In this document: piece by piece, positions 1 to 23,084 of the stretch
How positions within the stretch are numbered: position 1 is the stretch's first letter
How the letters are laid out: each line of letters begins with the position of its first letter
DNA from: a virus
Virus record (IMG/VR): IMGVR_UViG_3300036670_000056
Span: 1 to 23,085 of that record
Strand: one strand, 5' to 3'
DNA length: 23,085 bases
The notes under the pieces: model-generated
Database searches by the model: none
Seen by the model: the letters and a program-made list of their open reading frames with translations, nothing else
Told to the model about the DNA's origin: nothing
Position numbers and translations under genes: made by a program

Positions 1-308
1 GCTACTATCTTGTCAACTTGCGCGTGTGTTAACACATCTTGCTTCTTTAATACTAAAGTAAGCGTTTGCGTGTTAACTCTTGTACCTGCCTCACGGCTGC
101 CTATTAGACCTTGGTCAAAAGTATTGCCCTCTGCTAGTGCTTCAAACTTGTAAACAGTGGTTAACTCTGTTGCAATAGCTGTTACCGCTCCGTCTAGTAC
201 TGTAAATGCTCCATCTGCCTCGACAAAATCCGCAAGGTACACCGCCCGAATACCTCCGAGCGTGTCCTTACATGGTTCTGTACGTCCTTTTGTTACCAAA
301 CAACTCAT
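1..308 (-). CDS. Phage structural protein after the capsid gene, C-terminus cut by the window edge
   Basis: The first 102 codons can be read, and the gene continues beyond position 1. The start ATG shares one base with the capsid gene stop (TAATG), so translation is probably coupled. The N-terminus reads MSCLVTKGRTEPCKDTLGGI, then a beta-strand-like stretch (RAVYLADF) and a Gly/Thr/Val-rich region with no obvious membrane segment. A Cys plus 'CKD..GGI' opening is one I associate with structural proteins next to the major capsid gene in Bacteroidota phages, often called tail tube or virion proteins; that is recollection, not something I could search. Position directly after the capsid gene supports a virion role. 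A connector or tail-tube role is inference. Confidence 0.7.
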   Translation of the reverse strand, partial: MSCLVTKGRTEPCKDTLGGIRAVYLADFVEADGAFTVLDGAVTAIATELTTVYKFEALAEGNTFDQGLIGSREAGTRVNTQTLTLVLKKQDVLTHAQVDKIV

Positions 309-1216
309 TATGCACCTACGTAATAAACGATGTCCTCACTATTATAGTAGTTTACACCACCGTTATATACCATTTTCATTCTAACTTGTCCGTCAAATAA
401 CACATCTTCCATGTCTTTAACTCTGATTTCGTTGTGATCTCCTAGCAAGCCAGTTGCAAAAGCAAGGTTTTTAACCTCATAAGCAACGATTGTATTATCT
501 GCAAGACCATTAACAATTTCTAGCGTGTAACGTCCGAATACTAATGATGCGTTAGCGTTTCCACCTAGACCGTTTATCGCTCCGAAAGATGTTAGTTTCT
601 GTAAGTACTTAGTAGCAACGTCAGGAGATACAATAAATACAAGGCTCTTGCGTAGCATTGCGGTAGGAATAGAATTTTCTACCAACTCCAAAGCCGCGAT
701 AACGTTGTCCTTTGTTATTGCTCCTGCTGCGGTAGGCTTAACTACTGCTGCGTCGGCTGCAAATAACTTTGTAAAGCCATCCCACTCACCTGCATTATCT
801 GAATCTCCATTCCATATAAGATCATCTGTACGTTGTGCTGTGCTTGCTAAAACCTCGGCAAGGATTGCGCTCTCGATGTCAGCAGCTAGAGTGTCGTTAA
901 AGGCGCTTGCACCAAAACCATCTTCGCTCCATGTTTGTCTGAAATCTTCTTTACAAACCTCTAAGTTGTTCATTAGCTTAACAGGTATAATCTGTCGCTC
1001 GTTTAAAAGGATTGCACCCGCTGGAGTGAATCCACAAGAATAAGCTACTGTGCCGTCTGTGTATCTTATGCGTCGCAAACTGATTTTATCGTTTACGTTA
1101 AATAAAGGCGTAATTAACCCCTTTGCTAGAGTGTCAGCTTCTCTGAATGCTGCACCGATTATTTCACCTGCGACCTTGCCCGCATAGTTACTTGATACTG
1201 TTGTAGTTGTTGCCAT
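308..1216 (-). CDS. Major capsid protein, HK97-fold type
   Basis: This 302-aa protein is the likely shell subunit of the head. It follows a protease-scaffold gene by 3 nt, the classical pairing. Features seen: a Thr/Ala-rich N-terminus without a long delta domain, the middle stretch LIWNGDSDNAGEWDGF (about residues 133-148) that matches the 'linGdg..Gi.G' loop of HK97-type capsid proteins, and a C-terminal beta-rich end (MKMVYNGGVNYYNSEDIVYY). Length fits a small HK97-type capsid protein. The lack of a delta domain agrees with scaffold function being carried by the upstream protease fusion. Start ATG at 1216 is the first in frame after the upstream stop. Family assignment is by pattern recognition; a structure prediction would confirm the fold. 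Confidence 0.8.
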   Translation of the reverse strand: MATTTTVSSNYAGKVAGEIIGAAFREADTLAKGLITPLFNVNDKISLRRIRYTDGTVAYSCGFTPAGAILLNERQIIPVKLMNNLEVCKEDFRQTWSEDGFGASAFNDTLAADIESAILAEVLASTAQRTDDLIWNGDSDNAGEWDGFTKLFAADAAVVKPTAAGAITKDNVIAALELVENSIPTAMLRKSLVFIVSPDVATKYLQKLTSFGAINGLGGNANASLVFGRYTLEIVNGLADNTIVAYEVKNLAFATGLLGDHNEIRVKDMEDVLFDGQVRMKMVYNGGVNYYNSEDIVYYVGA

Positions 1217-1219
1217 TTT

Positions 1220-2314
1220 TTAGTTTCTATTTTTTTGAATTTGAGCAAGTATACGCCCTTTGGCGGTTGCTGGTCTTTCGGTTAGTGTTACTTGTGATTT
1301 TGCCTGTATGCGTGTTGTTGCTGGCTGCTCGCCCATTTTAGAAAGTGCTATTTTAAAGTCTGCGTTTTCTTGCTTGACCTCGGCTAGTTGCGTAGTCAAA
1401 GAATTTAAACCGAATCTTTTTTCTAAAGCGTTAAAAAATTTATTCATTTCGTCGTCGGATAGTTCCGCTTCAACTTCTGGAGCGTCCTCTGCTGGTGCTG
1501 CTTCTGGTTGCATAATCTCTGCGATTATACCCTCCTCTGCGATCACCATCATAGTGCCATCCTCTAGGCTGTACTCACCTACTGGTAGAGGTACTTGCTC
1601 GCCTTCGTTCTCAATAAACACCACTGTGCCTACCTCTAGTGCCTCGCCTTCATAAAAGACTTCTACACCGTCAGCGGTTATTACGCTGCCTGCTAGTTTA
1701 ACGTCCGCTGGTTTTGATGCGTTAATTAGGGCTTCACCTAATCGCTGCAAAATCCCTTTGGACTCATTTGTTTTACTCATAGTTACATTTTTAGTTATCT
1801 CTTTTAAATTAAATATTCCATCTATACTAAAGCCTAAAATCTTGCCGTCTTTGGCGTCTTGCCATACCTTGTCATCGTGTACTTTCATCATTACCGCCCA
1901 TGAGCCTACGCGGTCAGTAAATCCAAACTTACGCGTCTTATCGTGTACGTCGTCCTCTATAATCCAAGATTCTACAACGCTTACCGCATCGCTTCCTAGG
2001 TCAATCTCATGCTCTAGTGTGCTGTTGTTTACGTTGCCTTTTTTCACAAAGTCGTGCGCGGCTTGTACTATTGTTTTGCTAGAAAATACTAGGTTATAGT
2101 CACCGCTTTCGTCGCTTCTAAAAATAGGCTTGTTAGGCACTAACGCTATACCCATAAGTATGCGTCTTTCCTCGTCAACCGTTGCAAGTTTTACCGTCTT
2201 TTTTTGCTCGGATAGTGTGATCCAGTTGCTTTGCATTGCTGGACTTTTAACCACCGACAAAGCGTAAACTCCCTCGTTTTCCTTTGGATTATACTCAACG
2301 TTGTAGATTCTCAT
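1220..2314 (-). CDS. Prohead protease (XkdF / Peptidase_S78_2 type) with C-terminal scaffold-like region
   Basis: This 364-aa protein should process the immature head and act as internal scaffold. The N-terminal 170 residues fit the XkdF-like protease family: a strand region with ALVPNKPIFR (57-66), a TLEHE stretch with a candidate catalytic His (about 102), VVESWI (113-118), GSWAVMMKV (137-145) and GFSIDG with a candidate catalytic Ser (about 163). The second half has a short beta region, an acidic Ala/Glu/Pro-rich stretch (about 265-290), then a helical and probably coiled-coil segment with Lys/Arg near the end, as expected of a scaffold that is later degraded. It is encoded directly upstream of the capsid gene. 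The ATG is preceded by an ATCGTTATAA box seen before two other late genes. Catalytic residues are inferred by family resemblance. Confidence 0.8.
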   Translation of the reverse strand: MRIYNVEYNPKENEGVYALSVVKSPAMQSNWITLSEQKKTVKLATVDEERRILMGIALVPNKPIFRSDESGDYNLVFSSKTIVQAAHDFVKKGNVNNSTLEHEIDLGSDAVSVVESWIIEDDVHDKTRKFGFTDRVGSWAVMMKVHDDKVWQDAKDGKILGFSIDGIFNLKEITKNVTMSKTNESKGILQRLGEALINASKPADVKLAGSVITADGVEVFYEGEALEVGTVVFIENEGEQVPLPVGEYSLEDGTMMVIAEEGIIAEIMQPEAAPAEDAPEVEAELSDDEMNKFFNALEKRFGLNSLTTQLAEVKQENADFKIALSKMGEQPATTRIQAKSQVTLTERPATAKGRILAQIQKNRN

Positions 2315-2318
2315 ATAG

Positions 2319-2328
2319 TTATAACGAT
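2319..2328 (-). promoter_or_regulatory. Conserved ATCGTTATAA box, 4 nt before the protease start
   Basis: The minus strand reads ATCGTTATAA, then CTAT, then ATG. The surrounding 24 nt match the copy at 9131-9140 at all but about three positions, beginning TAGG and ending TATATGA. A third copy is at 8067-8076. The distance to the ATG is nearly constant (4, 4 and 5 nt). It could be a late promoter element giving almost leaderless transcripts, or a translation-initiation element. Confidence 0.5.
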
Positions 2329-2365
2329 AGCCTAAACCTTTTGTTTAACTAAAAATAAAAATAAA

Positions 2366-4258
2366 TTATCCAAACGCAGCCTGCGACCTTGTACTGCGAT
2401 CTGCTGCTTGCTGGCTTGTAACATCTTGACCCACTACAAAGGCTCTTACAGGCGGTGTATCTAGCTCGTCTAAGCCTGTGCGTAATTGGTTTACGTTTGA
2501 CCTACCTACTAGATTAAACGCTGGCTGCTGCGTTGCTGTTGCCGTTGCTGTGTTACCACCAGAGCCGCCTCCTTGACCCGCTACCTTTACGGATAGTATT
2601 TGCTTAACGTTTGCCAGTCCAGCCGCTACCGCTGCCGCTGCTGCTATTGCTCCACGTATAGGCGCGTCAGGTGTTGCTAGTGTTTGCTGTGCTTTAAAAG
2701 CAGCCGTAGCACTTTGGTAAGTGTCTACTAAAGTAGTTGCGACCGCTAACGCTTTGCTTGCAACCGTTCTTTTTCCTGCTAACGCTTCTAACCCTTGCGC
2801 AACCGTGCTTAAATTATTAAGGGCTTGAATTTTAGAATTAGTTTTTAAATTTTCTAAATCTATTTCGTCTTGCGCATCTTTTTTGTCTTTTATTTTTTTT
2901 GCTTCTGCGGTTGTTTTATCTAAATCTTTTTGCTGCTGTGCAAACTTTGCATTTAACAATAAAAGTAACGCGGCTTTTTCTTCTTCTGTTTGCGCTAGTA
3001 GTTCTATTTCTTGCTCGGCTCTAGTGCGTGCTAAATCTAGTTTTTGCTGTGCTGTTATTGCCTCCGCGTCTTGCGCTTCTGTTCTGTATCTTTTCTCTAA
3101 ATCAGCAATCGCTTTTGCGTGGTCGTCAATCGCTTTTAACTCGCTTTCGTTTATTTTTTTTAAAAAATCCGCGCGGTCTTTTTCAGATAATTTGTTATTT
3201 TCTGCTATAAGTTTACGCTGCTCATCAAAGCCTAATTTTGTGTTAGTTAGCGCGTCGGTTATTTCTTGCTTGGCTTGCTCGTTAACCACCCTTAGACGTT
3301 CCTTTGCTGCGTCTGCTGCAACCTTTGCGCGGTCTTGCGCTGCTTTTGCTGCGGCTTTCCTAGCATCTTCTAACCCTTTAATTCTGGACTTCTCGTCGTT
3401 GTTGGCTCTTTCTTCTTGCTTGTTTATATTGCGTCTGTCCTCGGCTGACTTTCTTTCTAATGCTATTAAGGCAATTTCAGCGGATGCGGCTGCTTCTAAA
3501 TCTTCCTTACCGCTATCTGATTGCGCGTTAAGTGCAAGTATAGCGGCTAGTTTTCTCTTTGCGTTTGCTAGTTCCTGTGCGGTTTGCTCTCCCTCGGCTT
3601 TTTTAATTGCATCTAAAGCATTTTTTTTATCTTTAAAACTTGCGTTTTCGTCGGTTAGTAATTCCTTAGATACTGCAAGGTCTTTATCTAATCTAGCGCG
3701 GGAAACGCTTAATCCACGCATAGCGTCTGAAACCTCTTGCAGTACTTTTGTCGCATCCGCAGCCGCTTGAAACTCTTTTGCTACCTCGTCGCCAAAACCA
3801 TTAACCGCTGCCCTGCCCTCTTCTAAGGCTCCCTTAAAATCTCCGCTAAAAAATTTAACTATTGCGTTACCTACGTTTAAAATTCTATCTCTAACTACAT
3901 CTATAACCGCGCCTACTCCAGCCATTACTTGCTCTAGTTGCTCGCCTCCTGCTTTAGTAGAAGTAAACGCATTAAATAATAAAGTAAGCGCACCAACTAT
4001 TGCAACCAAAACAAGCCCTAAAGGATTTGCAACTATTGCAACCATTGCCTTTAGCATCCCTTTCATTCCCGAAATGGTTTGGCTTAATGCTGGTGAAACT
4101 CCAGATATTGCGCTTTCAGTACCCTTAAATCCTTGTGTAGTTTTCTTTGTTGCGTTATCGCTTGCCGTTCCTACATCGTTTATTTGACCTTTTAAATCCT
4201 TTACGCCTTTAGTTGCCTTTTCAGATTTAACTACAATTTCAATTTCTTTTTTTATCAT
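2366..4258 (-). CDS. Tail tape measure protein
   Basis: This 630-aa protein sets tail length and is ejected with the DNA. The N-terminus (MIKKEIEIVVKSEKATKGVK) is typical of tape measures. A hydrophobic segment covers about 71-97 (AMVAIVANPLGLVLVAIVGA). A very long Ala/Lys/Glu-rich coiled-coil region follows (about 150-480), then an Ala-rich helical part containing TLVDTYQSATAAFKAQ and GLANVKQIL, a C-terminal pattern common in Bacteroidota tape measures. At about 1.5 A per residue, 630 residues suggests a tail near 95 nm; that is inference. Its ATG overlaps the stop of the 50-aa gene upstream (ATGA). It lies after, not before, the two large tail proteins and far from the chaperone gene, which is unusual. 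Confidence 0.85.
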   Translation of the reverse strand: MIKKEIEIVVKSEKATKGVKDLKGQINDVGTASDNATKKTTQGFKGTESAISGVSPALSQTISGMKGMLKAMVAIVANPLGLVLVAIVGALTLLFNAFTSTKAGGEQLEQVMAGVGAVIDVVRDRILNVGNAIVKFFSGDFKGALEEGRAAVNGFGDEVAKEFQAAADATKVLQEVSDAMRGLSVSRARLDKDLAVSKELLTDENASFKDKKNALDAIKKAEGEQTAQELANAKRKLAAILALNAQSDSGKEDLEAAASAEIALIALERKSAEDRRNINKQEERANNDEKSRIKGLEDARKAAAKAAQDRAKVAADAAKERLRVVNEQAKQEITDALTNTKLGFDEQRKLIAENNKLSEKDRADFLKKINESELKAIDDHAKAIADLEKRYRTEAQDAEAITAQQKLDLARTRAEQEIELLAQTEEEKAALLLLLNAKFAQQQKDLDKTTAEAKKIKDKKDAQDEIDLENLKTNSKIQALNNLSTVAQGLEALAGKRTVASKALAVATTLVDTYQSATAAFKAQQTLATPDAPIRGAIAAAAAVAAGLANVKQILSVKVAGQGGGSGGNTATATATQQPAFNLVGRSNVNQLRTGLDELDTPPVRAFVVGQDVTSQQAADRSTRSQAAFG

Positions 4259-4407
4259 CTTAAAATAAATTTAAAGGATCGTTTTATTTTTACTTTTAAA
4301 TCTTTGCAGTCCTTTACAAGTTCATACTTTCCCTTTGCAATTTCTATTGTTTCGGTTTCACCGTAGTACTCAAATGCTTGCAGCGCGTCTATTATTTTGC
4401 CTATCAT
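4255..4407 (-). CDS. Small 50-aa tail-module protein, unknown function
   Basis: This short frame begins MIGKIIDALQAFEYYGETET and ends KRSFKFILR. It is linked by ATGA overlaps on both sides: its ATG overlaps the stop of the large tail protein, and its TGA overlaps the tape measure start. This exact double coupling and the absence of any other use of the interval make a real gene likely. It is basic towards the C-terminus with one Cys and no membrane segment. Position just before the tape measure would suit a small tail assembly partner, but no family is recognised. Confidence 0.7.
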   Translation of the reverse strand: MIGKIIDALQAFEYYGETETIEIAKGKYELVKDCKDLKVKIKRSFKFILR

Positions 4408-6647
4408 GTTGCTAATTGTAAAACTGTTATTGTTGGGTTACTTACTCCGTCCGTTATATTTATAGTGCCTACTCTGTCCTCTGTAAACGGATTATCATTA
4501 AAGGAAAATACAATGTTTTGCCCTGATTGAACTACCGACGTTTCTATTGTTATAAAGTCGCTTTGAGTCGTTACAAAGGCTTGCTCTGCACCTGTGTAGT
4601 AAATCGACCCACCGTTGGCAAATTGCCCAGTAGATTGTGAAACCTTGCTTATGTCGCCCGCGCTTAGGCTGGTAAAAATATCATTTATTAAAACCAATTT
4701 TGAAACGCCTGTTATAAGGTTAGAATCCACCGTATCTATAATGTACCTATCGCCTTTTATTATTAGTCTGTCGTTTAGTTTCAACTCACTTGCAAGTGTT
4801 ATCGGTAGGTTAGCATTTAGCGTGAACTGTCGTCGGTTTTCACTAAACAAATCATTTAGGTAATCGCTATAAAAGCGTGAATACCAGTTGTCTAAAAGAG
4901 TAGCACCGTTGTACTCGCTAAACTCCGCGTTAAATTGTGCCGCAAAACCACCTGTCAACTGCAAAGAATGACTAGGTAAGCGCGCTTTTATTACTTCTTG
5001 GTAGGTATCACCGCTGAATCCTATGCGATTATCGGACGTTAAATCCAATAATGGCGCGTAAAACAGGAACGGTGCGTTGTTATAGGTGTTTAAATCCTTA
5101 TCAACTATCAATCCGTATTGCACGGTTGAGCCTGTGAAGCGTTCAAACTGGGGATTTTCAAATGGTAGTTCTATTTTTAATTCATCTTCTGCTGAAATAT
5201 TCTCTAGGCTATCCTCAAAACCACCAAATTGCTGCGAAAAAATACCCTCGTATTGCTCGGCAAGTATGCTCTGTTGCTCTTTATAGCCGAAATTAATCTC
5301 GTTGTACAACTTACCGCGTGTCACGTCTAGGGTTTCTATATCTACATATTGCGATATGTCAGTAATTGCTCCGCTATCGTACCAGCTTGCAAGGTCATTT
5401 ACATAAAGGTCGCCATTATTTTGTGGCACGATTACTAAATTAAAAGCCTTTACGATTGCGGCTATAAAGTCCACTACTTTAATATCGGGCAAAATGTTTT
5501 TAATCTCTAATTGTGGCGCAAGGCTGGTAAAAGTGCTGCTGTTTGTGCTTTGGTCACTTACTAAAATATTACTGGAGTTGTTTACAAAGTTTAACGTTTG
5601 ATACGCGATGTCTACCGTCGCGGTTATTATGCCTTTTATTTCTAATTTATAATTAAATAAATACGCTCCAGGAGTAAACGGCAGCAAATCACCGCGATAA
5701 GTTATTAAATTATTACCTGTTAAATAATCGCTTTTAAAAACTTGTTCACCATTTATAAAAAATAACAAACGGTATTCAGAATCGCCCGCGCTTACATTTA
5801 CCTGAGCGCTTATTTCTGGTCTAAATCTCGGCTGGTACATTTCCCTCTGGTAAGGTGTAATACTAAAAGTGTGCAGGTCTATTATGCGACTAGGTATAGC
5901 ATCATCTTTGCCATTGCCTAAACTTATAAACAGGTCGTCGAACTCTTGGCGCGCAAAAAAATCATCTGTAAAAAATAACCCGTAGTCGGTGCTAATTGCT
6001 TGTATTATTTCTTTTACTTTTATAGCTGGTTTTAATTCTCGCCAGCTTAACCCGCTAGTAAATGCAGCGTCATACTTTATATTTATATTAGCCTCGTTGT
6101 CTAGTTGTGAGCCTTGAAACAAATATCTTCTGTCATAAGATAAAAGAGGATATACAACGCTGCCGTTTGCAATCCCTAGCGCGGTGTCTAATCCACTTAA
6201 AACTGTTTGCGGGCTGTATGTATGGTCAAACTCTGCAAGGTCTAAATCGCGCAGTTTGTCCTCACCTATCAAGTCCTTTATCTTTACCGTTTCACCAAAA
6301 AACTCAATCATATAGTTAACAGGTACATTTGATTGAAGCGATGCACCGTTAAGTTGAACCTTGCCTATCTTATAAGTTACACCACCTAAAAGTAATAACG
6401 CGCTTTGTTTTTTTCTTGCGTCAAAACCGTTTATAATTTGTGCGTCGTAGTAGTGCTTAAAAATAGCGTTGTTTAGGTCGTCAGCAGGTACTCTGAATTG
6501 CTGCGTAAAGTCTGTAAATATTTTGGTTAAATCCTGAATAGATTGCACCGACTGGTTTAACCTTATCGTTTCGTCTGGAAATAAAGTAACACGCTCAAAT
6601 GGCGATTGTTCTGTACGCTTTACATAAAGGGCTAAATCACTATACAT
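4404..6647 (-). CDS. Large tail or baseplate protein with a BACON-like C-terminal domain
   Basis: This 747-aa protein is predicted to be part of the tail tip or baseplate. Near the N-terminus (about 40-65) it has FTQQFRVPADDLNNAIFKHY, a signature I associate with Bacteroidota phage tail proteins. Most of the protein is beta-rich with many Asn, Thr and aromatic residues. The last 50 residues (VVQSGQNIVFSFNDNPFTED, then RVGTINITDG...ITVLQLAT) look like a BACON or Ig-type beta-sandwich, ending in the usual 'ItVlQ' strand; such domains bind carbohydrate or mucin in Bacteroidota proteins. A TTG five codons upstream is possible, but the ATG at 6647 gives a normal 8-nt overlap with the preceding gene. 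It could hold the receptor-binding function, which is inference. Confidence 0.7.
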   Translation of the reverse strand: MYSDLALYVKRTEQSPFERVTLFPDETIRLNQSVQSIQDLTKIFTDFTQQFRVPADDLNNAIFKHYYDAQIINGFDARKKQSALLLLGGVTYKIGKVQLNGASLQSNVPVNYMIEFFGETVKIKDLIGEDKLRDLDLAEFDHTYSPQTVLSGLDTALGIANGSVVYPLLSYDRRYLFQGSQLDNEANINIKYDAAFTSGLSWRELKPAIKVKEIIQAISTDYGLFFTDDFFARQEFDDLFISLGNGKDDAIPSRIIDLHTFSITPYQREMYQPRFRPEISAQVNVSAGDSEYRLLFFINGEQVFKSDYLTGNNLITYRGDLLPFTPGAYLFNYKLEIKGIITATVDIAYQTLNFVNNSSNILVSDQSTNSSTFTSLAPQLEIKNILPDIKVVDFIAAIVKAFNLVIVPQNNGDLYVNDLASWYDSGAITDISQYVDIETLDVTRGKLYNEINFGYKEQQSILAEQYEGIFSQQFGGFEDSLENISAEDELKIELPFENPQFERFTGSTVQYGLIVDKDLNTYNNAPFLFYAPLLDLTSDNRIGFSGDTYQEVIKARLPSHSLQLTGGFAAQFNAEFSEYNGATLLDNWYSRFYSDYLNDLFSENRRQFTLNANLPITLASELKLNDRLIIKGDRYIIDTVDSNLITGVSKLVLINDIFTSLSAGDISKVSQSTGQFANGGSIYYTGAEQAFVTTQSDFITIETSVVQSGQNIVFSFNDNPFTEDRVGTINITDGVSNPTITVLQLAT

Positions 6648-8061
6648 TTTGCACCGCGTCAAATGATTGTAAAAAGTCGATAGCGTAATTAATTAATTTA
6701 TCGTTAAGCCCTGTTAAAACCCTTAGCGATTTGCTGTCTACGTTTACAGGTGTGAAAGTTCCCGCATCATTAAAATAAACGTACTCACTATTTAGCAAGT
6801 CTTTAAGTACTTCATTCTGTTGCTCGTTTAGATAGCCGCTGTTGAGGCTTACCGTAGTTCGTGAGTTCTTGTTCCCGCTTCTATATAAGTGTCTTGAGGT
6901 GTCGTATAAACCACCTAGAACAAAGTTATTTTTATACTCGCCCTCTTGCGTAAATGTTACGTTTTCGGTTTTAGCCTTAAAAAAAGTTAGTTGCTCAAAT
7001 ACTCCGAGCCTATTTAAAAACATAACGTTAACAGGTGTGAATTTACACTCTTTTACTATCTCGAAAATATATTCTGTATTTAATACTATATAAGGCGTGG
7101 TTAATTCGGTAGTGTCTACAAATAAATACTGAACTCTGTTTTCAACTATCTGACTATTTACTATCGTATTACCATAAATAATATTTTGGTCTTTATCTTC
7201 AAAAAAATAACTGGATCCGTCTGCTAATACAGGAACTACGACTGTATCCCCTTGCTGCACTTGGTTAAACTTAGATGTGAGTAAGACGTTGCTAGTAGTG
7301 TCTAGGTAATTGGCTCCGTCAGCATAAGACGAATATCCGCGCGTAGTAATTAAGTCCACAATTCGCGACTGTGGCGAGGTCTGTACGTTGTTTTGTGTGA
7401 GTATTGTAGTGGCTACTAAAGAACCTACCGCGCTAGGTAATATGCCAGTAGATGCACGCCATACTGGTCTAGGATTTAGGAAGTCTAAAGCAAACCGCGA
7501 AATTAAAACGTCAAAATATTCCCAGTTTAAACTAGGAGTAAACACTTTTTTCTCATAGTTAGGTGATGCAAGGCTTGCGCTCGTGTCGCCTGTCCTAAAA
7601 AACATCTGCACATTTTGAAATAGTTCCGTAGTTATTCCTAAAGATAGGTAATAGTTTGAACGCGCAAGCATTAATCCGTCGATTGCTGGCACACTGCTAG
7701 GCGTGTTCGTTATTAATGCGCTTACTCGTACGTCGTTAGGCGCGAAAGTAAACAACTGATTTATAAATATGTCAGGATTTGTACTTTTAACCGTTACAAC
7801 GTTGACTAAAATAGTACATTCCCATTGCCCACTAGCCACAAAGTCTAAGTCTATCGCGTCTTTGTATAGTTGTGCCTGAGTGTTTGAGTCCGTTCCTGCT
7901 GAAAATTCAAAGGCTTGCGACCTTGTTTGTACGATAGTTTCTAAAACAACCCCGCTTGACTGCGTGGATTGATTTGTAAAGCCTATCGATAGACCGTTAT
8001 TTTGTACGTTAAAATCAAATTCTTGATCGAACGTTATTTCTATCTCTGCGAATGTTGCCAT
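6640..8061 (-). CDS. Tail structural protein, possibly distal tail or baseplate
   Basis: This 473-aa protein has no signal peptide or membrane segment and is beta-rich with many Asn, Gln, Thr and Ser residues, like a virion protein. The N-terminus (MATFAEIEITFDQEFDFNVQ) is acidic. The C-terminal third (from about 370) has NFVLGGLYDTSRHLYRSGNK and then a region resembling those of phage distal tail proteins, ending in LKDLLNSEYVYFND-like strands. It overlaps the next large tail gene by 8 nt, so the pair is co-translated. I see no portal-like stem, so a portal is unlikely despite the size. An ATCGTTATAA box sits 5 nt before the ATG. Exact role is not recognisable. Confidence 0.6.
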   Translation of the reverse strand: MATFAEIEITFDQEFDFNVQNNGLSIGFTNQSTQSSGVVLETIVQTRSQAFEFSAGTDSNTQAQLYKDAIDLDFVASGQWECTILVNVVTVKSTNPDIFINQLFTFAPNDVRVSALITNTPSSVPAIDGLMLARSNYYLSLGITTELFQNVQMFFRTGDTSASLASPNYEKKVFTPSLNWEYFDVLISRFALDFLNPRPVWRASTGILPSAVGSLVATTILTQNNVQTSPQSRIVDLITTRGYSSYADGANYLDTTSNVLLTSKFNQVQQGDTVVVPVLADGSSYFFEDKDQNIIYGNTIVNSQIVENRVQYLFVDTTELTTPYIVLNTEYIFEIVKECKFTPVNVMFLNRLGVFEQLTFFKAKTENVTFTQEGEYKNNFVLGGLYDTSRHLYRSGNKNSRTTVSLNSGYLNEQQNEVLKDLLNSEYVYFNDAGTFTPVNVDSKSLRVLTGLNDKLINYAIDFLQSFDAVQNV

Positions 8062-8066
8062 AGAAT

Positions 8067-8076
8067 TTATAACGAT
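8067..8076 (-). promoter_or_regulatory. Conserved ATCGTTATAA box, 5 nt before a tail gene start
   Basis: This is the second of three copies. The minus strand reads TTATCGTTATAA, then ATTCT, then ATG. It lies in a 133-nt gap in an otherwise tightly packed gene run, which suits a new transcription start. It is less similar to the other two copies outside the core. Confidence 0.45.
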
Positions 8077-8084
8077 AAAATGGG

Positions 8085-8092
8085 TATCTTTG
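8085..8092 (+). promoter_or_regulatory. Candidate plus-strand -7 promoter element, TATCTTTG
   Basis: TATCTTTG matches the Bacteroidota -7 consensus TAnnTTTG exactly and lies 19 nt before the ATG of the only plus-strand gene candidate. No convincing -33 TTTG is found at the right distance. The same 8-mer occurs on the minus strand at 15778-15785. Confidence 0.4.
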
Positions 8093-8111
8093 TTTAAATC
8101 AAAACAACGCT

Positions 8112-8186
8112 ATGAAATATACATTTGTAAGAACACAAGAAAAAAAAGATGGTTATACATTCGAGCAACCTGTCGATAGTGTTTAG
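8112..8186 (+). CDS. Plus-strand mini-gene, 24 aa, unknown function
   Basis: This frame encodes MKYTFVRTQEKKDGYTFEQP followed by VDSV. It fills a 133-nt gap inside the minus-strand tail operon that otherwise has no minus-strand coding. Evidence that it is real: a TAnnTTTG box 19 nt upstream, and a leader containing ATCAAAACAACGC, the identical 13-mer found just before the ERF gene start on the minus strand. The peptide is polar with no membrane segment. It could be a small antisense-encoded regulator, or the RNA alone may matter. Short length makes chance a real possibility. Confidence 0.4.
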   Translation: MKYTFVRTQEKKDGYTFEQPVDSV

Positions 8187-8194
8187 GTATGACC

Positions 8195-8686
8195 TTACGA
8201 CGTAGTAAATGTTAACAGGTCGTCAAGTTCTAATGCGAACGCTTCTACAACTTCCTCTGGCAGTTTCTTGAATTCGTTTTCGAATGGCTTAGTAAAAAAC
8301 TTTGTAGGCTTTATGCCGCGTTTAAAAATAGCCGTAGCAACAGCAAAACCAAATGACTTGTAAGTAGTGAATTTGCCTTGTTTATTTCTGGGCTTTATAC
8401 CTTTAAGTTTAGCCCACTTCTCAAATATTTGTGCAGGCGGTTTCTTTGTCTTGTAACTAAAAGGCGTGTTAAATTTGCGTTCCGTGCCGCTTACCCCGCT
8501 ATCTTGAAACTGCCAGTAATTCTCTAAATTAAAACTTAAAATAAAAGAGTTTGGGCTTACGGTTAAATCGTACTTTGTAGATTCATACAAGCCCTTACTT
8601 GCGTTCATTTTATTACGCGTTAAGTTTGCGCGCGCTTGCTGCTGTACGCGCTTACCGAACGTGTCAAGGGCTTTCTTTACGGACAT
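8195..8686 (-). CDS. HK97 gp10-like head-tail joining or tail-completion protein
   Basis: This 163-aa protein is basic, with an N-terminal helix (VKKALDTFGKRVQQQARANL), then LENYWQFQDSGVSGTERKF (about 54-72). The Y..f.dsGvsG element is the hallmark of the HK97 gp10-type family. The middle is Lys-rich with aromatic residues, and the C-terminus is helical (FENEFKKLPEEVVEAFALEL). The family acts at the head-tail junction. Its start overlaps the upstream gene stop by 10 nt, and that neighbour looks like a tail terminator, so the two probably work together in capping and joining tails. Confidence 0.7.
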   Translation of the reverse strand: MSVKKALDTFGKRVQQQARANLTRNKMNASKGLYESTKYDLTVSPNSFILSFNLENYWQFQDSGVSGTERKFNTPFSYKTKKPPAQIFEKWAKLKGIKPRNKQGKFTTYKSFGFAVATAIFKRGIKPTKFFTKPFENEFKKLPEEVVEAFALELDDLLTFTTS

Positions 8687-9126
8687 ATACTCATAACATC
8701 GTTAGGCACTTCAACTAACAAACTTAGTTCCCAGCCGTAAATACCATTTTTGACTGACTCTACCTTTGTGAATCCGCTATCGGTTGATACGCTTATTATC
8801 TCATTGCGTACTAACTCATTGTACATGCGTCTAAGCGATTGTAAAGAGGTGTTATAAACGTCTTGGCGGTTGTCGTTGGTAGTAAACTTGTCGGTGTTTA
8901 TCTCTTTACGTGTCTGCACCATATCAAGTATTTGAACGGTAACGTTAAACTGAAAATTATTAGCGGTAAAGTTTCCGTCGGCTGCTTCTATGTGCGCAAG
9001 CGGGTAAAGGTTCTTTTTTTGTATATCAATCTGGTCTATCTGGCTGCCCTCGGTAACCGTGTTAATGTCGGTATCTGCGCTTAAAATAGACAGTAGGTAG
9101 TTAAGTAGTTGTGTATATGCGTTCAT
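8677..9126 (-). CDS. Tail-terminator-like protein
   Basis: This 149-aa protein begins with a helix (AYTQLLNYLLSILSADTDIN), then a loop and the strand KKNLYPLAHIEAADGNF, a beta-rich middle (FQFNVTVQILDMVQTRKEIN) with a long gap region, and a final beta hairpin (NGIYGWELSLLVEVPND). This layout fits lambda gpU-like tail terminators of about 130-150 aa, and the next gene is gp10-like, a common pair. The start ATG lies 4 nt after an ATCGTTATAA box, which overlaps the stop of the methyltransferase upstream. Assignment is by layout and neighbours rather than a catalytic motif. Confidence 0.6.
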   Translation of the reverse strand: MNAYTQLLNYLLSILSADTDINTVTEGSQIDQIDIQKKNLYPLAHIEAADGNFTANNFQFNVTVQILDMVQTRKEINTDKFTTNDNRQDVYNTSLQSLRRMYNELVRNEIISVSTDSGFTKVESVKNGIYGWELSLLVEVPNDVMSICP

Positions 9127-9130
9127 ATAA

Positions 9131-9140
9131 TTATAACGAT
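9131..9140 (-). promoter_or_regulatory. Conserved ATCGTTATAA box, 4 nt before the tail-terminator-like start
   Basis: This is the first of three copies in transcription order. The minus strand reads TAGGTAATCGTTATAA, then TTAT, then ATG. It overlaps the methyltransferase stop codon (TAA at 9142-9140). The element and ATG context are nearly the same as at 2319-2328. Confidence 0.5.
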
Positions 9141-9895
9141 TACCTAGGATTTTTGTTTATTCGCTCGCTTGCTATGTCAAAATATCCCTGATCCATTTCT
9201 ATACCTATAAAGTTTCTATTAAGATTATTTGCAGCAACTCCAGTTGTTCCAGAACCCATGGTAAAATCTAAAACCGTTTCGTTTTCGTTGGTGTAGGTTT
9301 TTATCAAATATTCCATAACCTCCAAACATTTTTGAGTTGGATGCACACCCTTTCTTTTTGTTATAGTTTGCGAAAATGTTATTATACTTTTAGGATTTGT
9401 TCTTGTTGTGTCGTATTCATCAGACATTTTTACATTAAAACCTCCATAAAGTTTTTTATCTGTTTTCTTGTTGTTTTTTATAGCGTTCTTGGCTCTGTTT
9501 GGTCTTTGGTTTATTTTTGCTTTTGGTGTAAATTGTCTATTATAGGTACATTGTTTTTTGTAAAACACACAAATATCTTCGTGCTGTTTTAAAGGCATCC
9601 TTTTAGAGTTTAAATGTCCAGAGGGGTCTATTTTATCCCATACCCAACAATATTTGAACATTTTTGCATTACTCATTATTAAAGCACTTGTAAACGGTTG
9701 GCTACCAAAAAGAACAATAGCACCGTTTGGCTTTATAATCCTGTTTAACTGCTCCCACATTAACTCAAAATCAATTACACTATCCCATTTGCACGCAGTT
9801 GTCCCGTACGGAGGGTCTGTGATAATTGCATCTATACTATTATCTTTAATCGTTTTCATTACCTCTAGGCAATCGCCTAATCTTAAATCTATCAT
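9140..9895 (-). CDS. DNA (adenine-N6 or cytosine-N4) methyltransferase, DPPY type
   Basis: This 251-aa enzyme transfers a methyl group from S-adenosylmethionine to an amino group in DNA. Motif IV comes first (ITDPPYGTT, about 34-42), and the SAM-binding motif I is near the C-terminus (VLDFTMGSGTTGVAA), the beta-class order. GVHPTQKCLEVMEYLIKTYT precedes motif I as usual. The start is the ATG at 9895, one nt after the stop of the frameshifted chaperone frame. An upstream TTG start at 9979 would add 28 residues, but that DNA encodes the chaperone extension. It is a paralogue of the enzyme at 16268-17065 (shared TTACKWD, NRIIK, NGAIVL, SQPFT, FKYCW.WDKI). Its place between chaperone and tail genes suggests an inserted cargo gene. 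Confidence 0.9.
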   Translation of the reverse strand: MIDLRLGDCLEVMKTIKDNSIDAIITDPPYGTTACKWDSVIDFELMWEQLNRIIKPNGAIVLFGSQPFTSALIMSNAKMFKYCWVWDKIDPSGHLNSKRMPLKQHEDICVFYKKQCTYNRQFTPKAKINQRPNRAKNAIKNNKKTDKKLYGGFNVKMSDEYDTTRTNPKSIITFSQTITKRKGVHPTQKCLEVMEYLIKTYTNENETVLDFTMGSGTTGVAANNLNRNFIGIEMDQGYFDIASERINKNPR

Positions 9896-9896
9896 T

Positions 9897-10139
9897 TTAT
9901 GTTTTTTGTTTAGCCATTGTGTTAAGGTCGCTTTGGTACGCCATTTCCATAAACGCCTCGTGTATTCGCATTTGCTCAACTTGCTCTATCGTATAATTGA
10001 AAGCAGCGCATAGAACCCTTATGTGATGATACCAGCCCCATTTTTTACCGAAATTATTACGGATATTTGTCGCGTCGTTTACTTCCCCGCCTTGGAATAC
10101 TTCAGGGTAGAGGTTAACAAGTCGTCCCTTAAAGTCAAA
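9897..10139 (-). CDS. -1 frame extension of the tail-assembly chaperone (gpGT-like C-terminus)
   Basis: This frame has 80 sense codons and no start of its own at a sensible place. It is open from the slippery T run and reads FDFKGRLVNLYPEVFQGGEV, then a segment with FGKKWGWYHHI and a helical end (YTIEQVEQMRIHEAFMEMAY). The 'kkWGWy' element and the helical end resemble the T part of G/GT-type tail chaperones. With a -1 slip after codon 161 of the upstream gene, the fusion would be 241 aa. The stop TAA is one nt before the methyltransferase ATG, so the operon packing makes sense only if this frame is used. Ribosome slippage is inferred; the frame, run and spacing are seen. Confidence 0.75.
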   Translation of the reverse strand, partial: FDFKGRLVNLYPEVFQGGEVNDATNIRNNFGKKWGWYHHIRVLCAAFNYTIEQVEQMRIHEAFMEMAYQSDLNTMAKQKT

Positions 10140-10621
10140 AAAAAACCTATTGCCGACCTTACCACGTCCATTGGTAGCGCGTGTATTTTGTCTATGTGTA
10201 ACGCTTCCCCTGTGTACTTTTCCACGCTGTAAGAGCCTATTACTTTCTGTTCGATAGGCCTGTAAAGTACAGCCATAAAATAGTCGATAGTGCTTTCATC
10301 CTCTGTGTAGAATTTCTCTAAATCCACGTATTCCGATACGCTTACATTGTCTAAGTTAGGTATAAATCCCAATCCTTTATAAGTCGTTACAAGCGGCTTT
10401 GCTGGCTCTTCTAATACACCCTGTAAAATAGTTACTATTTCTTTATAATCCTTTACGGGTATTTGCTCCACCTCTTTTAAAGATAGACCGCAAAACACGC
10501 TTAAAAGATTCTTATCTGCTTGCTGCTGCGTTATATCTTTGTTAGCGTTTAAGTACTCGTTGTACTTCATAAACTGTATAAGGCTTACTTCGCTTAGTTG
10601 TGTGGGTATGTTTATGTTCAT
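10079..10621 (-). CDS. Tail-assembly chaperone (gpG-like), with programmed frameshift near the 3' end
   Basis: The zero-frame product is 180 aa, beginning MNINIPTQLSEVSLIQFMKY. It is mostly helical with acidic patches (ITQQQADKNLLSVFCGL, then EVEQIPVKDYKEIVTIL) and no membrane segment. Lambda-type tail chaperones are made as a short form and a rarer frameshifted long form that together coat the tape measure. Here codons 159-162 are GGT TTT TTT TTG, and the -1 frame downstream is open for 80 codons (see 9897-10139). The ATG at 10621 has an A-rich leader. Unlike lambda, it follows the large terminase rather than directly preceding the tape measure. The name rests mainly on the frameshift layout. 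Confidence 0.7.
   Translation of the reverse strand: MNINIPTQLSEVSLIQFMKYNEYLNANKDITQQQADKNLLSVFCGLSLKEVEQIPVKDYKEIVTILQGVLEEPAKPLVTTYKGLGFIPNLDNVSVSEYVDLEKFYTEDESTIDYFMAVLYRPIEQKVIGSYSVEKYTGEALHIDKIHALPMDVVRSAIGFFLTLRDDLLTSTLKYSKAGK
10137..10145 (-). promoter_or_regulatory. T9 slippery run for -1 frameshifting (T_TTT_TTT)
   Basis: The minus strand has GG, nine T, then GAC. The zero frame divides it as GGT TTT TTT TTG, so the first seven T form a classical X_XXY_YYZ heptamer with all T. A -1 slip leads to TTT GAC TTT and the long open frame. A +1 shift gives TGA at once. A homopolymer this long could also act by transcriptional slippage. I did not identify a clear downstream pseudoknot. Confidence 0.7.
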
Positions 10622-10646
10622 TTATTTGTTTTTTAAATTATTTTAA

Positions 10647-11834
10647 TTACCTAACGTAATAAACTCCTTTAGGCTTACCAAAGAGTTCCATTATCGCGTA
10701 CCGCACTCCGTCGATAGCGTGGTTATTTATATCAATAGGCTTGTTTAATCGCTCGCCTGTCTTATCGGTTGCCCATGTGTAAGATTGAAATTCTTTTATT
10801 ACGTTCTTAGACCGCGATGTAATTACAATATCCTGCTCTTGCATTAACTGTATACCAAAATTTATACTATCGTTGCCCTTTTTGGCTGGTAGTATGCGTA
10901 TGCCCGCACGCTTAATCTCTGCGATGCTTTTTGGTTCTGCGCTATCTGCGTATATGTATAGACTAGTTCCGATAGATTGTTGCTTACAGAGGCTTACAAT
11001 GTCGCTGTTGAGCAAACCAGTCTTATATACTTCCTCATCTAAGATAATGCTATCATTATATTTGTAGATACTTGTTATGGCGGTAGGGTCATTTGTATAA
11101 CCAAAATCTAAGCCATGACCTAGTAGCCTTGCATCTTGTGGCACGCTGTCTATTTGTTTAAAGGATTCAAATATAACGCCCTCAATGCCTCCTGTGTTAC
11201 CTAATCCGTAGACCTGCCATTTGTTAGCCCAGTACTCGCTCTTTATTGTTCCGTCGTCATTGTAGCCCTTACTCTTATACCTCAGTATCTCGTTGCGTTC
11301 TTGCTCGCTTAGATACTCGTTATCTAAAAATGTGAGTTGTAGGAAGTCGCAGTCGTCGCGTGGGATTACTTCCTTATGCGCCCAAAATTCAACGTTAGGA
11401 TTATAGTCAATTATGATGCGCTTAGCGCGTGAGGTTAATTCTCGATAAGATTCGAAGTTGATTTTGTTTGCTTCGTTAATATACACTAGGTCTGATCGTA
11501 AACCTTTGCCGACATCGTCTTTGTCTAATCCGATAAAGCGAATAAATGAACCAGTAGGAAGCGTTATTTTAGGCTGACCAAAATCAATGCCAGTCATTTT
11601 ACAAGTTATGCCTAGTTTCTCTATTATGTTAATGCAGTCTTTTAAGACCGTGTCCCGCATCTTTGACAGTTCAGCAGATACAATGTAGCACTCTTTACCG
11701 TTGTGCTGTGCTAAATGGTTTATAATAATTATGCACGCGCTATAAGTCTTTGCCGCACCTTGCGAACCTTGCAAGCACCATATCTTTTTTTTGAGTCCTG
11801 CGATTTTACGTAGCGCGGTTGTTTGCTTAATCAC
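10647..11834 (-). CDS. terL: Terminase large subunit (ATPase and nuclease)
   Basis: This 395-aa motor protein packages DNA into proheads and cuts it. Walker A is GSQGAAKT at 23-30, with Ser in place of the more usual Arg. Walker B is LVYINEAN with the catalytic Glu near 121. The nuclease domain has LDFGYTNDPTA (Asp about 243), YADSAEPKSI (Asp about 297) and NHAIDGVRYAIME (Asp about 375), the RNase H-like acidic set. Length is on the short side of the family but complete. The start is GTG at 11834, overlapping the small subunit gene by 8 nt; the next in-frame ATG lies after Walker A and would destroy the protein. Confidence 0.95.
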   Translation of the reverse strand: MIKQTTALRKIAGLKKKIWCLQGSQGAAKTYSACIIIINHLAQHNGKECYIVSAELSKMRDTVLKDCINIIEKLGITCKMTGIDFGQPKITLPTGSFIRFIGLDKDDVGKGLRSDLVYINEANKINFESYRELTSRAKRIIIDYNPNVEFWAHKEVIPRDDCDFLQLTFLDNEYLSEQERNEILRYKSKGYNDDGTIKSEYWANKWQVYGLGNTGGIEGVIFESFKQIDSVPQDARLLGHGLDFGYTNDPTAITSIYKYNDSIILDEEVYKTGLLNSDIVSLCKQQSIGTSLYIYADSAEPKSIAEIKRAGIRILPAKKGNDSINFGIQLMQEQDIVITSRSKNVIKEFQSYTWATDKTGERLNKPIDINNHAIDGVRYAIMELFGKPKGVYYVR

Positions 11835-16267: not shown

Positions 16268-17065
16268 TCATACCAAAATATTTTTAAAATCTCCCAAACG
16301 CTCTTTTATTATTTCATAATAATTAAGTTCTTTTTCAATTAGTATAAAATCTCTTTTCAAGTTTATACAAGCAACTCCAGTTGTTCCACTTCCCGCAACA
16401 TTATCTAAAACAATATCTCCTTCGTTTGTATAGGTTTTTATTAAGTATTCAAATAGTCTTACTGGTTTTTGTGTTGGGGCAAGTCTATTTAATGCGTTTA
16501 ATTCCCCTATCCTATTATTATATATAAGTTTATTTTTAGGATACCTTAAATTTTCATTATGCTTTTTAGATGTTTTAAAAACCCCACTTGCCATTCCTTG
16601 CGAATTAATATCTTTTCTTTCATAAGAGTTCTTTCTTGGTCGTTTGTTTTTATCTTCGGCTAATACCATTTGTGGATGGTAATTAATTTTATTGTTATTT
16701 TTTGAAAAAATACATATATCTTCAAAAACACTTAACGGTTTGTATTTTGCAGTAGCGAAGCCACCACTATTTATTTTATCCCAATACCAACAATATTTAA
16801 AAGATTTAATATTACTACCGATTAAAGCCGTAGTAAAAGGTTGTGATGCTGTTAATACAATTGCACCATTATCTTTTATAATTCTATTATATTGTTCCCA
16901 AAGTGGTTCAAAAGGTATAACTTCATCCCATTTACAAGCAGTTGTTCCGTAAGGTAAATCCGCAAGTATCATATCAATACTTTTGTCAGGTATATTTTGC
17001 ATTTCTACCAAACAATCTCCGTGTATTATTTTGCTTTTTTCAAAAGCATATTTGCCATCGCTCAT
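16268..17065 (-). CDS. DNA (adenine-N6 or cytosine-N4) methyltransferase, DLPY type
   Basis: This 265-aa enzyme (from the ATG at 17065) has motif IV as ADLPYGTT, with Leu in place of the first Pro of DPPY, and motif I near the C-terminus as VLDNVAGSGTTGVAC, preceded by RLAPTQKPVRLFEYLIKTYT. The order is beta-class. It is a clear paralogue of the enzyme at 9140-9895 (shared GTTACKWD, NRIIK.NGAIVL, SQPFT, FKYCW.WDKI). A TTG at 17095 would add ten residues (KHETKNIF...), but the ATG with an AAAATATTTTTAAA leader is more plausible. It is flanked by two non-coding stretches of about 100 nt in a compact region and is rich in A and T, which suggests separate acquisition. Confidence 0.9.
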   Translation of the reverse strand: MSDGKYAFEKSKIIHGDCLVEMQNIPDKSIDMILADLPYGTTACKWDEVIPFEPLWEQYNRIIKDNGAIVLTASQPFTTALIGSNIKSFKYCWYWDKINSGGFATAKYKPLSVFEDICIFSKNNNKINYHPQMVLAEDKNKRPRKNSYERKDINSQGMASGVFKTSKKHNENLRYPKNKLIYNNRIGELNALNRLAPTQKPVRLFEYLIKTYTNEGDIVLDNVAGSGTTGVACINLKRDFILIEKELNYYEIIKERLGDFKNILV

Positions 17066-17091
17066 TTTAAAAATATTTTTAGTTTCGTGTT

Positions 17092-17190
17092 TCAAATCAT
17101 CATTGTACTAAATTTACCGTGCCAGTACATAACACGTAATATATTTAATGGCGAAAAGCCACTAACCATATTACCATCCGTTGTAGGCAA
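17092..17190 (-). CDS. Possible 32-aa frame in the gap before the methyltransferase
   Basis: Starting at a TTG directly after the stop of 17191-17442, this frame reads LPTTDGNMVSGFSPLNILRV followed by MYWHGKFSTMMI. It is in the same frame as that gene, so it could be a readthrough tail, a separate tiny gene from an inner ATG at 17169, or a remnant. The residue pattern looks protein-like, but nothing else supports expression. Confidence 0.25.
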   Translation of the reverse strand: MPTTDGNMVSGFSPLNILRVMYWHGKFSTMMI

Positions 17191-18908: not shown

Positions 18909-19571
18909 TTAAAATACTAATTTAGTACTTTCAATAATCTCTTTACATAGTTCGTTTGGTATCTTACTTCTATTGTAGGATCCTTTTTTACCTTGTGTTC
19001 CTGTTGTCGCTCCACGTCTTGCGCTTTCGTGGTGGCAATGTCTATCAATTATTTCGCCTGTATCTTTTTTATATTTAAAGTTCTTGCACATTGGTTTTGA
19101 TTTCCAAGTTTTAGAGTTTGTCCATATATCTGTTGGTTTTGCCCTATCATCCCCATATTGGCAATACCATACCGTGTGCCTTTTAAATTCTTGCATCCAT
19201 TCCATATGTCGTAACATTCCTCTGGGGTTCTCGATAAAGAAAATAAGTTTAGGATTTTCAATTAACCATTCTTTTACTAGCCCAATCCAGTGTTTATTTA
19301 CTGTATCGCATTTTATAGCGTATTCGCTTTTTGGTTCTTTTGTGTTTGTTCGGTGCGTACTACAAGCCGCAATACTGTAAGTCGTGCAGTCTGGACTTGC
19401 CCAAACAACATCAGGAACAAAAGGTATATTTTCTTTTTGCAGTTCGCCTATATCAATACTTAAATCTATTTTATCATATGCCGTCCAATCTACGCTAAAA
19501 ACATTTAAACCTTGTTTTTCGGCTTCACTTCCTATACTTCTTGATCCTGCAAATAACTCTAATAAGTCCAT
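18909..19571 (-). CDS. C5-cytosine DNA methyltransferase-like enzyme with SPDC catalytic motif
   Basis: This 220-aa protein begins MDLLELFAGSRSIGSEAEKQ, the SAM-binding motif I (FAGSRSIG at 7-14, standing in for FaG.GG). VWASPDCTTYSIA (57-69) holds the candidate catalytic Cys at 62, with SPDC in place of the usual PPCQ. FFIENPRGMLRH (111-122) matches the ENV motif (ENP here). CQYGDDRAKPTDIWTN (137-152) may stand in for the QxRxR motif. It is shorter than typical cytosine-C5 enzymes (over 300 aa), with little room for a target recognition domain. The changed motifs leave open a different pyrimidine modification or a non-specific enzyme. It lies directly after the primase-helicase. Confidence 0.75.
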   Translation of the reverse strand: MDLLELFAGSRSIGSEAEKQGLNVFSVDWTAYDKIDLSIDIGELQKENIPFVPDVVWASPDCTTYSIAACSTHRTNTKEPKSEYAIKCDTVNKHWIGLVKEWLIENPKLIFFIENPRGMLRHMEWMQEFKRHTVWYCQYGDDRAKPTDIWTNSKTWKSKPMCKNFKYKKDTGEIIDRHCHHESARRGATTGTQGKKGSYNRSKIPNELCKEIIESTKLVF

Positions 19572-22454: not shown

Positions 22455-23084
22455 TTAAAACATTTTTAGTTGTTGCTGGTGCTGCTTTAGTCTTAGCATA
22501 GCCGCGTCGTAGTACTCTTTGTCTAATTCGCAAGCTGTTAGATCGTACTTTAGATTGTGGCACGCTAAGGCTATTGAGCCAGAGCCTAGGTGCGTGTCTA
22601 GTATATTGTCGCCCTCTTTTGCGTAGTTCATTAAAATCCATTCGTAAAGTTTAACGGGTTTTTGTGTTGGGTGGATTTTAACCTCTTTGTTTTTCATGTC
22701 GTGTTGTATCATTCCATTCCATGTGCATTCATAAACCTTTACGCTTTTGTGAGTTGAGCAAATTGCTAGTTCAGCCTCGCCAAATGCAGTTCCATTCTTT
22801 TGCCAAACAATAGCTCCACCGCATAAGCCTAAGTAGTTTCCTCCCCAAACTATTTGATTTTTAGAAACTCTTTCTAGTTCAATGTAATACTTATCTTCAG
22901 GAGCTAAATTATCAAACAATTTATAATTAGTTCTTTTAGTTGCTTGTTTTCCGCTCTTTTTATTATCTATTAATCCTATCGCATCAATGTTCTGGTAAGG
23001 CGGATCAACAATAGCTAAATCAAAGTGATTATCAGGATAGCGAGCCATTAACTCCATGTTATCTTCGTTGCTTATATTTATCAT
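22455..23084 (-). CDS. DNA adenine-type methyltransferase, DPPY type
   Basis: This 209-aa protein starts MINISNEDNMELMARYPDNH at the window edge; the ATG at 23084-23082 matches the normal start for this family, but an extension beyond the window cannot be excluded. Motif IV, LAIVDPPYQN (23-32), comes first and motif I, ILDTHLGSGSIALAC, near the C-terminus, preceded by KIHPTQKPVKLYEWILMNYA, the beta-class order. QIVWGGNYLG and GAIVWQKNGT lie between. It is only distantly related to the two paralogous enzymes in this window. It is followed by the early promoter. Target sequence is unknown. Confidence 0.9.
   Translation of the reverse strand: MINISNEDNMELMARYPDNHFDLAIVDPPYQNIDAIGLIDNKKSGKQATKRTNYKLFDNLAPEDKYYIELERVSKNQIVWGGNYLGLCGGAIVWQKNGTAFGEAELAICSTHKSVKVYECTWNGMIQHDMKNKEVKIHPTQKPVKLYEWILMNYAKEGDNILDTHLGSGSIALACHNLKYDLTACELDKEYYDAAMLRLKQHQQQLKMF

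Follow-up and report, generated by a model that had tools for sequence, protein, structure and literature searches.

Frameshifts in tail assembly chaperone genes are a textbook case of ribosomal recoding, and for a ribosomal slip on a heptamer of the X_XXY_YYZ type, such as T_TTT_TTT, seven T's suffice. The pair gpG and gpGT of phage lambda and other frameshifts in chaperone genes were described by Xu, Hendrix and Duda in 2004 (summarised in PMC5009743). Programmed transcriptional slippage is known from mxiE of Shigella, in which one nucleotide added at a U run joins two ORFs, from dnaX of Thermus (A9) and from IS elements (PMC1088944). The RNA:DNA hybrid in the elongation complex is nine bases long and insertions made in transcription predominate in A/T runs (PMC5574713). 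As a criterion for purposeful slippage, Baranov and co-workers (2005) proposed a run of 9A or 9T conserved in all the homologues (PMC1088944).

The stretch of DNA analysed here (the window, 23,085 nt, IMG/VR record IMGVR_UViG_3300036670_000056) contains on its minus strand an ORF of 180 aa (10621-10079, the zero frame) coding for a short, G-like product that matches PHROG 32199 at 8e-12. A run of nine T's (T9, 10145-10137, minus strand) within this ORF goes from the third position of codon 159 to the second of codon 162 in the context GG-T9-GAC, and the zero-frame codons across it are GGT TTT TTT TTG, with T_TTT_TTT in phase at 10145-10139 and two extra T's after it. Counted from the run, the -1 frame extension (10145-9897, minus strand) has 82 codons (80 in the preliminary description) before a TAA at 9899-9897, just ahead of the ATG of a methyltransferase gene that begins at 9895. 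It matches PHROG 38404 at 1.3e-7, and its product, FFFDFKGRLVNLYPEVF...KKWGWYHH...MAKQKT, is the C-terminal part of a fusion of 241 aa. The +1 frame is stopped by a TGA immediately after the run. All these coordinates were recomputed, and the position and phase of the run, the end of the -1 frame and the length of the fusion hold as originally described. The stretch in which the zero-frame tail and the -1 frame are both coding (10136-10082, minus strand) is short in the lineage of the window. This T9 is the longest homopolymer of the whole window, and in 485 kb of related loci there are 16 other runs of nine or more T's on the gene strand. Rfam gave no match anywhere in the window. The -1 frame opens 150 nt upstream of the run; between this opening and the KWGWY motif it has neither an ATG nor a GTG nor a TTG, so that in the window it could hardly be translated except by way of the zero frame.

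The preliminary description had named conservation of the run and of the -1 frame in related phages as a way to check the proposal. Both frames and the T9 are kept in 11 viral contigs with a protein 95-97% identical (one of the 11 ends upstream of the -1 stop). Before the run, the variable sites among these near relatives fall 10/4/65 on the three codon positions of the zero frame, while past the zero-frame stop the distribution in the same positions is 0/25/4, so 25 of the 29 are third-position sites when read in the -1 frame. The distinct codon changes in the region coded only in the -1 frame are 25 synonymous and 4 nonsynonymous, and in the 58-nt dual-coded stretch the changes are 0/4/5. 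This pattern of substitution indicates that zero frame and -1 frame alike are under purifying selection. The observation of a T9 with an open and conserved -1 frame is thus confirmed and is not due to chance.

The gene containing the run (hereafter the slip gene) has homologues in two cultured phages of Nonlabens, P12024L and P12024S, with 30% identity and an identical T9. In each phage the annotation divides the gene into a pair of hypothetical genes (P12024L_40 and P12024L_41 in one, gp38 and gp39 in the other), bearing out the earlier suspicion that the second half is missed by ORF calling. The recoded P12024L gene is located at L018:4001-4695 (JQ823123 23946-24640). PHROG 32199 and PHROG 38404 are actually the two halves of one recoded protein, with conserved columns upstream and downstream of the slip site (FF at the run, followed by F.xRL..LYPE, KWGWYH and AYQSDL), and conservation of the -1 frame starts at the run and not at the annotated ATG of P12024L_41.

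Profile scans of IMG/VR and of GTDB genomes provided more than 200 further loci. The -1 relation with T9 or T10 was found in 244 of the 245 readable loci (68 clusters at 80% and 40 at 70% amino acid identity, single linkage), and in the remaining one, L151, the frames are fused by a T10. When distinct 400-nt sites were taken as the unit, including those of a later flank-anchored scan, the total reached at least 285, and those listed comprise 220 T9 and 64 T10 in the -1 relation and the single fused T10. Runs of seven or more were counted, and no T7, T8 or T11 and longer was found at the 285 homologous sites listed. T9 appears in all three codon phases (0, 1 and 2) and T10 in two of them (0 and 1), and the residues before and after FF vary among homologues. 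Four loci outside the motif filter (L065, L146, L219 and L220) have T9 too, L146 in codon phase 0. The flank-anchored scan of IMG/VR served as a control without homology-based choice of sites; it searched for six T's followed, after 1-6 bases, by the common downstream flank, so that T7 to T12 were admitted. Among the matches listed (at least 119), 108 were T9 or T10 sites, 94 of them with a WGWY-type motif downstream within reach and 14 without, and the remaining 11, with T6 or T7 and another gap length, lacked the downstream motif; no homologous T7, T8, T11 or T12 was present among the scan matches listed.

The exceptional locus, L151:478-1236, carries T10 at a site of the T9 type, which joins the short and the long frame in a single ORF of 252 aa; it could be a true fused allele or an assembly error. 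A narrower profile search of genome contigs linked four loci to hosts: a prophage in the isolate genome of Flagellimonas onchidii, MAGs of Flavobacteriaceae and Winogradskyella, and one contig binned as Epsilonproteobacterium. Prophage copies are rare, with matches in 3 of 396 genomes, one of which (L254) is not recognisably a slip gene. A distant copy, G397 (profile E=8.6e-5), has kept the T9 and a -1 frame with KWGWM; its prophage region (L374:7365-10305) contains terL, then a 204-aa ORF and then the slip gene with T9. To judge from these searches, the slip-gene family is large and its named hosts are mostly Flavobacteriaceae.

Past the run, the zero frame stays open for at least 53 codons over the -1 coding sequence in 60 of the 68 clusters, and random synonymous recoding of the -1 frame leaves it equally open in a mean of ~6% of trials. 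The overlap in most relatives is about 50-60 codons, for example in L044:5001-5734 with a tail of about 58 codons. Such a long open frame in 60 clusters indicates that the short product of most relatives has its own tail of conserved length. The lineage of the window has a shortened zero-frame tail (about 20 codons) and has lost the long dual coding. The stop in the third frame lies close by the run, at 2-9 codons.

Directly upstream of the slip gene is terL (10647..11834, minus strand; Pfam PF17288 at 3.4e-21), which is also the upstream neighbour in 65 of the 66 clusters with enough sequence; the earlier remark that the gene adjoins terL and not the tape measure is valid for the family. The DNA methyltransferase gene that starts 1 nt past the -1 stop (9140..9895, minus strand; PHROG 67 at 6.3e-82) is context and lies outside the slip mechanism; neither P12024L nor the Flagellimonas prophage has a gene at this place. 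Other methyltransferase-like genes were recognised by eye, from translations only, at 16268-17095, 22455-23084 and 18909-19571. The downstream block, on the minus strand as well, begins with proteins of 149 aa (g149, 8677..9126) and 163 aa (g163, 8195..8686), followed by one of 473 aa (g473, 6640..8061), and the order g149, g163, g473, g752 was found in 62 of 62 clusters as far as the contigs reach, with the tape measure after g752 where the sequence extends that far. In the window the same order leads to a tape-measure-like protein (2366..4258, minus strand; PHROG 3336 at 2.4e-8; ~5.6 kb from the slip gene), an XkdF-like protease and the capsid, and in the Flagellimonas prophage it is preserved as far as the protease. 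The predicted fold of a g473 homologue (pLDDT 86) has a segment of ~140 residues resembling tail-tube and baseplate chains, among them monocin tube and cap, phiCD508, E217 and the lambda tail tip (probability 0.97-1.00, with modest TM-scores and E 0.002 or worse). The top-ranked fold matches of this protein were multi-domain immunoglobulin-like proteins, which have no meaning here. The gene order downstream and the tube-like segment of g473 indicate that the slip gene opens a tail-type block. Over positions 308-11834 the window reads a possible terS, terL, slip gene, tail block, tape measure, protease and capsid, with tail-type genes ahead of capsid genes; the window as a whole has no recognised portal gene.

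Among Pfam families, PF10109 (Phage_TAC_7) scores highest with the window protein, over residues 27-70 (E=0.0022; 18.4 bits, the cut-off being 25), and 2 of 17 members match it, below the cut-off. There is also a weak match to PHROG 166, 'tail protein', at 6e-4. PHROG 166 and PF10109 had no match in the 148 genomes of the order that were the intended comparison set, and NCBIfam gave nothing of weight for the slip-gene protein. The fold predicted for the natural fusion of L151, with its relatives aligned, has a mean pLDDT of 87 and a pTM of 0.80. It consists mostly of helices and has a small beta part; residues 182-192 form a linker predicted with low confidence, and the C-terminal domain is helical. 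Neither sequence profiles nor fold comparison matched the fusion to a PDB entry. Foldseek against BFVD gave 43 matches at E <1e-3, all of them uncharacterised or unnamed Caudovirales proteins including that of P12024S, and the first match with an informative name was the tail assembly chaperone of Arthrobacter phage Kitkat (E=0.16, probability 0.82). Another weak Foldseek match, gp10 of Flavobacterium phage 6H, was set aside, this gene having no run of nine or more T's. Taken together, we infer that the slip gene is likely to act in tail assembly. The more precise identity of tail assembly chaperone, given in the preliminary description, is plausible with homology below the curated thresholds: the two-product gene resembling lambda G/GT stands, while in sequence the likeness stays sub-threshold (18.4 against 25 bits for PF10109).

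The gene pair might instead be some other two-product assembly factor, involved for example in head-tail joining or packaging, as the fixed place beside terL in 65 of 66 relatives, the tape measure ~5.6 kb away and the weak chaperone homology would allow. We find this rather unlikely, because the block downstream is tail-type, the known phage precedent for a rare C-terminal extension in the -1 frame is the tail assembly chaperone, and PF10109, though below its cut-off and in 2 of 17 members, is the best-scoring Pfam family. Whatever the function, the T9 almost certainly gives programmed access to the -1 frame. Replication slippage could turn the run into a phase-variable switch, T9 alleles giving the short form and T10 alleles the fusion only, and the T10 of L151, amid related T9 lineages and with fused frames, is what such a switch would leave; this is very improbable given one such allele in the 285 sites listed, no T8 alleles, purifying selection on both frames and a zero-frame tail open in 60 of 68 clusters, L151 itself being possibly an assembly error. 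Two independent overlapping genes, the downstream one self-started or coupled, are how P12024L and P12024S are annotated, and P12024L_41 begins at an internal ATG that overlaps the P12024L_40 stop. However, 44 of the 68 clusters, the window included, have no ATG, GTG or TTG between the run and the -1 motif, and the -1 frame is conserved from the run onwards and not just from that ATG, so that this arrangement has hardly any credibility. Homopolymers are error-prone, and the least credible reading of all, an error of sequencing or assembly or a pseudogene in decay, can be ruled out by the run length being identical in many separate assemblies, in the two cultured phages and in the prophage of the Flagellimonas onchidii isolate genome, and by the purifying selection on both parts.

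As for the layer at which the slip occurs, the preliminary description spoke of a programmed -1 frameshift and gave polymerase slippage at the T9 as another possibility. The conserved entry into the -1 frame at this run supports the first part, whereas a ribosomal mechanism appears less likely than slippage of the polymerase. If the fusion is made, RNA polymerase slippage rather than a ribosomal shift is the probable route as far as can be judged from sequence, because the run always has 9 or 10 T's, lies in any codon phase and goes without detectable ribosomal stimulators. All the 285 sites listed are T9 or T10, the constancy of length expected by Baranov for purposeful slippage, and the flank-anchored scan agrees. 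A run of nine also equals the RNA:DNA hybrid in length. One added nucleotide restores a conserved ORF, of which the T10 of L151 is a natural example. The eighth T could be replaced by C synonymously in both frames, leaving U_UUU_UUC, and it is T in 33 of 33 phase-1 T9 clusters; the chance of this is 10^-1.8 with both frames weighted and 10^-3.8 with the zero frame only, assuming independent clusters, which is true only in part. Elsewhere in these loci Phe-Phe is written TTTTTT in 108 of 257 cases, never within a run longer than T8. Programmed -1 ribosomal frameshifting on U_UUU_UUU in the style of lambda G/GT, with no part for the polymerase, has in its favour the in-phase T_TTT_TTT of the window, a heptamer contained in any T9 or T10, and that it is the classic mode of tail assembly chaperone genes (PMC5009743). 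Yet seven T's would be enough for it and there is no T7 or T8 among the sites listed. The 60 nt downstream had no excess of pseudoknot-free RNA structure across the 68 clusters (mean z 0.07), and SD-like motifs of 5 nt were found in 0 and of 4 nt in 5 of them. Moreover, Bacteroidia ribosomes do not recognise SD sequences (PMC9976891), making it unlikely that an SD-stimulated route is open to these phages. Some T's are forced by the amino acids (V/I/L before FF, Y/W/L after), and since any T9 also includes the heptamer, a ribosomal or mixed mechanism keeps some weight, but a purely ribosomal shift seems to us doubtful.

Our best explanation, to which we would give a probability of about 0.6, is that transcriptional slippage in one gene yields a tail-assembly chaperone pair with a common N-terminus. 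Normal T9 transcripts would give the 180-aa product. In some transcripts RNA polymerase would slip on the nine T's adding one U, giving the mixed run lengths in the mRNA population that mark genes with programmed transcriptional slippage, and their ordinary translation would produce the 241-aa protein, with the C-terminal domain (F..KWGWY...) encoded in the -1 frame. The shared domain would most probably handle the tape measure and the rare extension would recruit the tail-tube subunit, as lambda gpG and gpGT do. For the wider claim, that a Bacteroidota-phage lineage of chaperone-like genes makes an obligatory short and long pair by polymerase slippage on T9 or T10, we consider the odds to be about even. 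Such a use of the polymerase layer would perhaps be explained by Bacteroidia ribosomes being unable to use Shine-Dalgarno-stimulated frameshifting.

If transcriptional slippage is the mechanism, it would mean that the ratio of the products is what matters and that the decoding layer is exchangeable, for which dnaX is a known precedent. P12024L and P12024S, growing on Nonlabens/Persicivirga sp. IMCC12024, offer a cultured system in which to test it. For annotation, hundreds of marine viral contigs have the second half of the gene split off or missing in their ORF calls. In the literature searched, mostly open-access, transcriptional slippage was not described for any tail assembly chaperone.

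The comparison with lambda G/GT shows one gene in both cases, with two N-coterminal products of which the longer is reached by the -1 frame near the 3' end, a place among tail genes, an X_XXY_YYZ heptamer and an extension without a start of its own. In the lambda type the G part binds the tape measure and the T part the tube protein, and the products are missing from the virion and required at a set ratio. Lambda-type genes lie between those of tail tube and tape measure, whereas the slip gene is beside terL, always has T9 or T10, has no stimulators that could be seen and resembles them in sequence only below threshold, and the zero-frame tail of most relatives shares about 50-60 codons with the -1 frame. 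With the gpE/41/14 tail assembly chaperones of PF10109 the likeness is limited to the weak match at residues 27-70. In P12024L and P12024S the gene (gp40+gp41 and gp38+gp39) is homologous, has the same T9 and comes after terL, but it is annotated as two unrelated hypothetical genes and, unlike in the window, no methyltransferase gene is inserted downstream. Like mxiE, dnaX and the IS elements, the slip gene has an A/T run of nine of conserved length, ORFs joined by one inserted nucleotide and a stop nearby in the third frame; it differs in being an assembly gene of Bacteroidota phages, in which slippage is predicted from the sequence. Phage assembly genes with two products and a recoded extension are already known, and what sets the slip gene apart is the fixed T9/T10, the site beside terL, the long dual coding and a probable change of the decoding layer.
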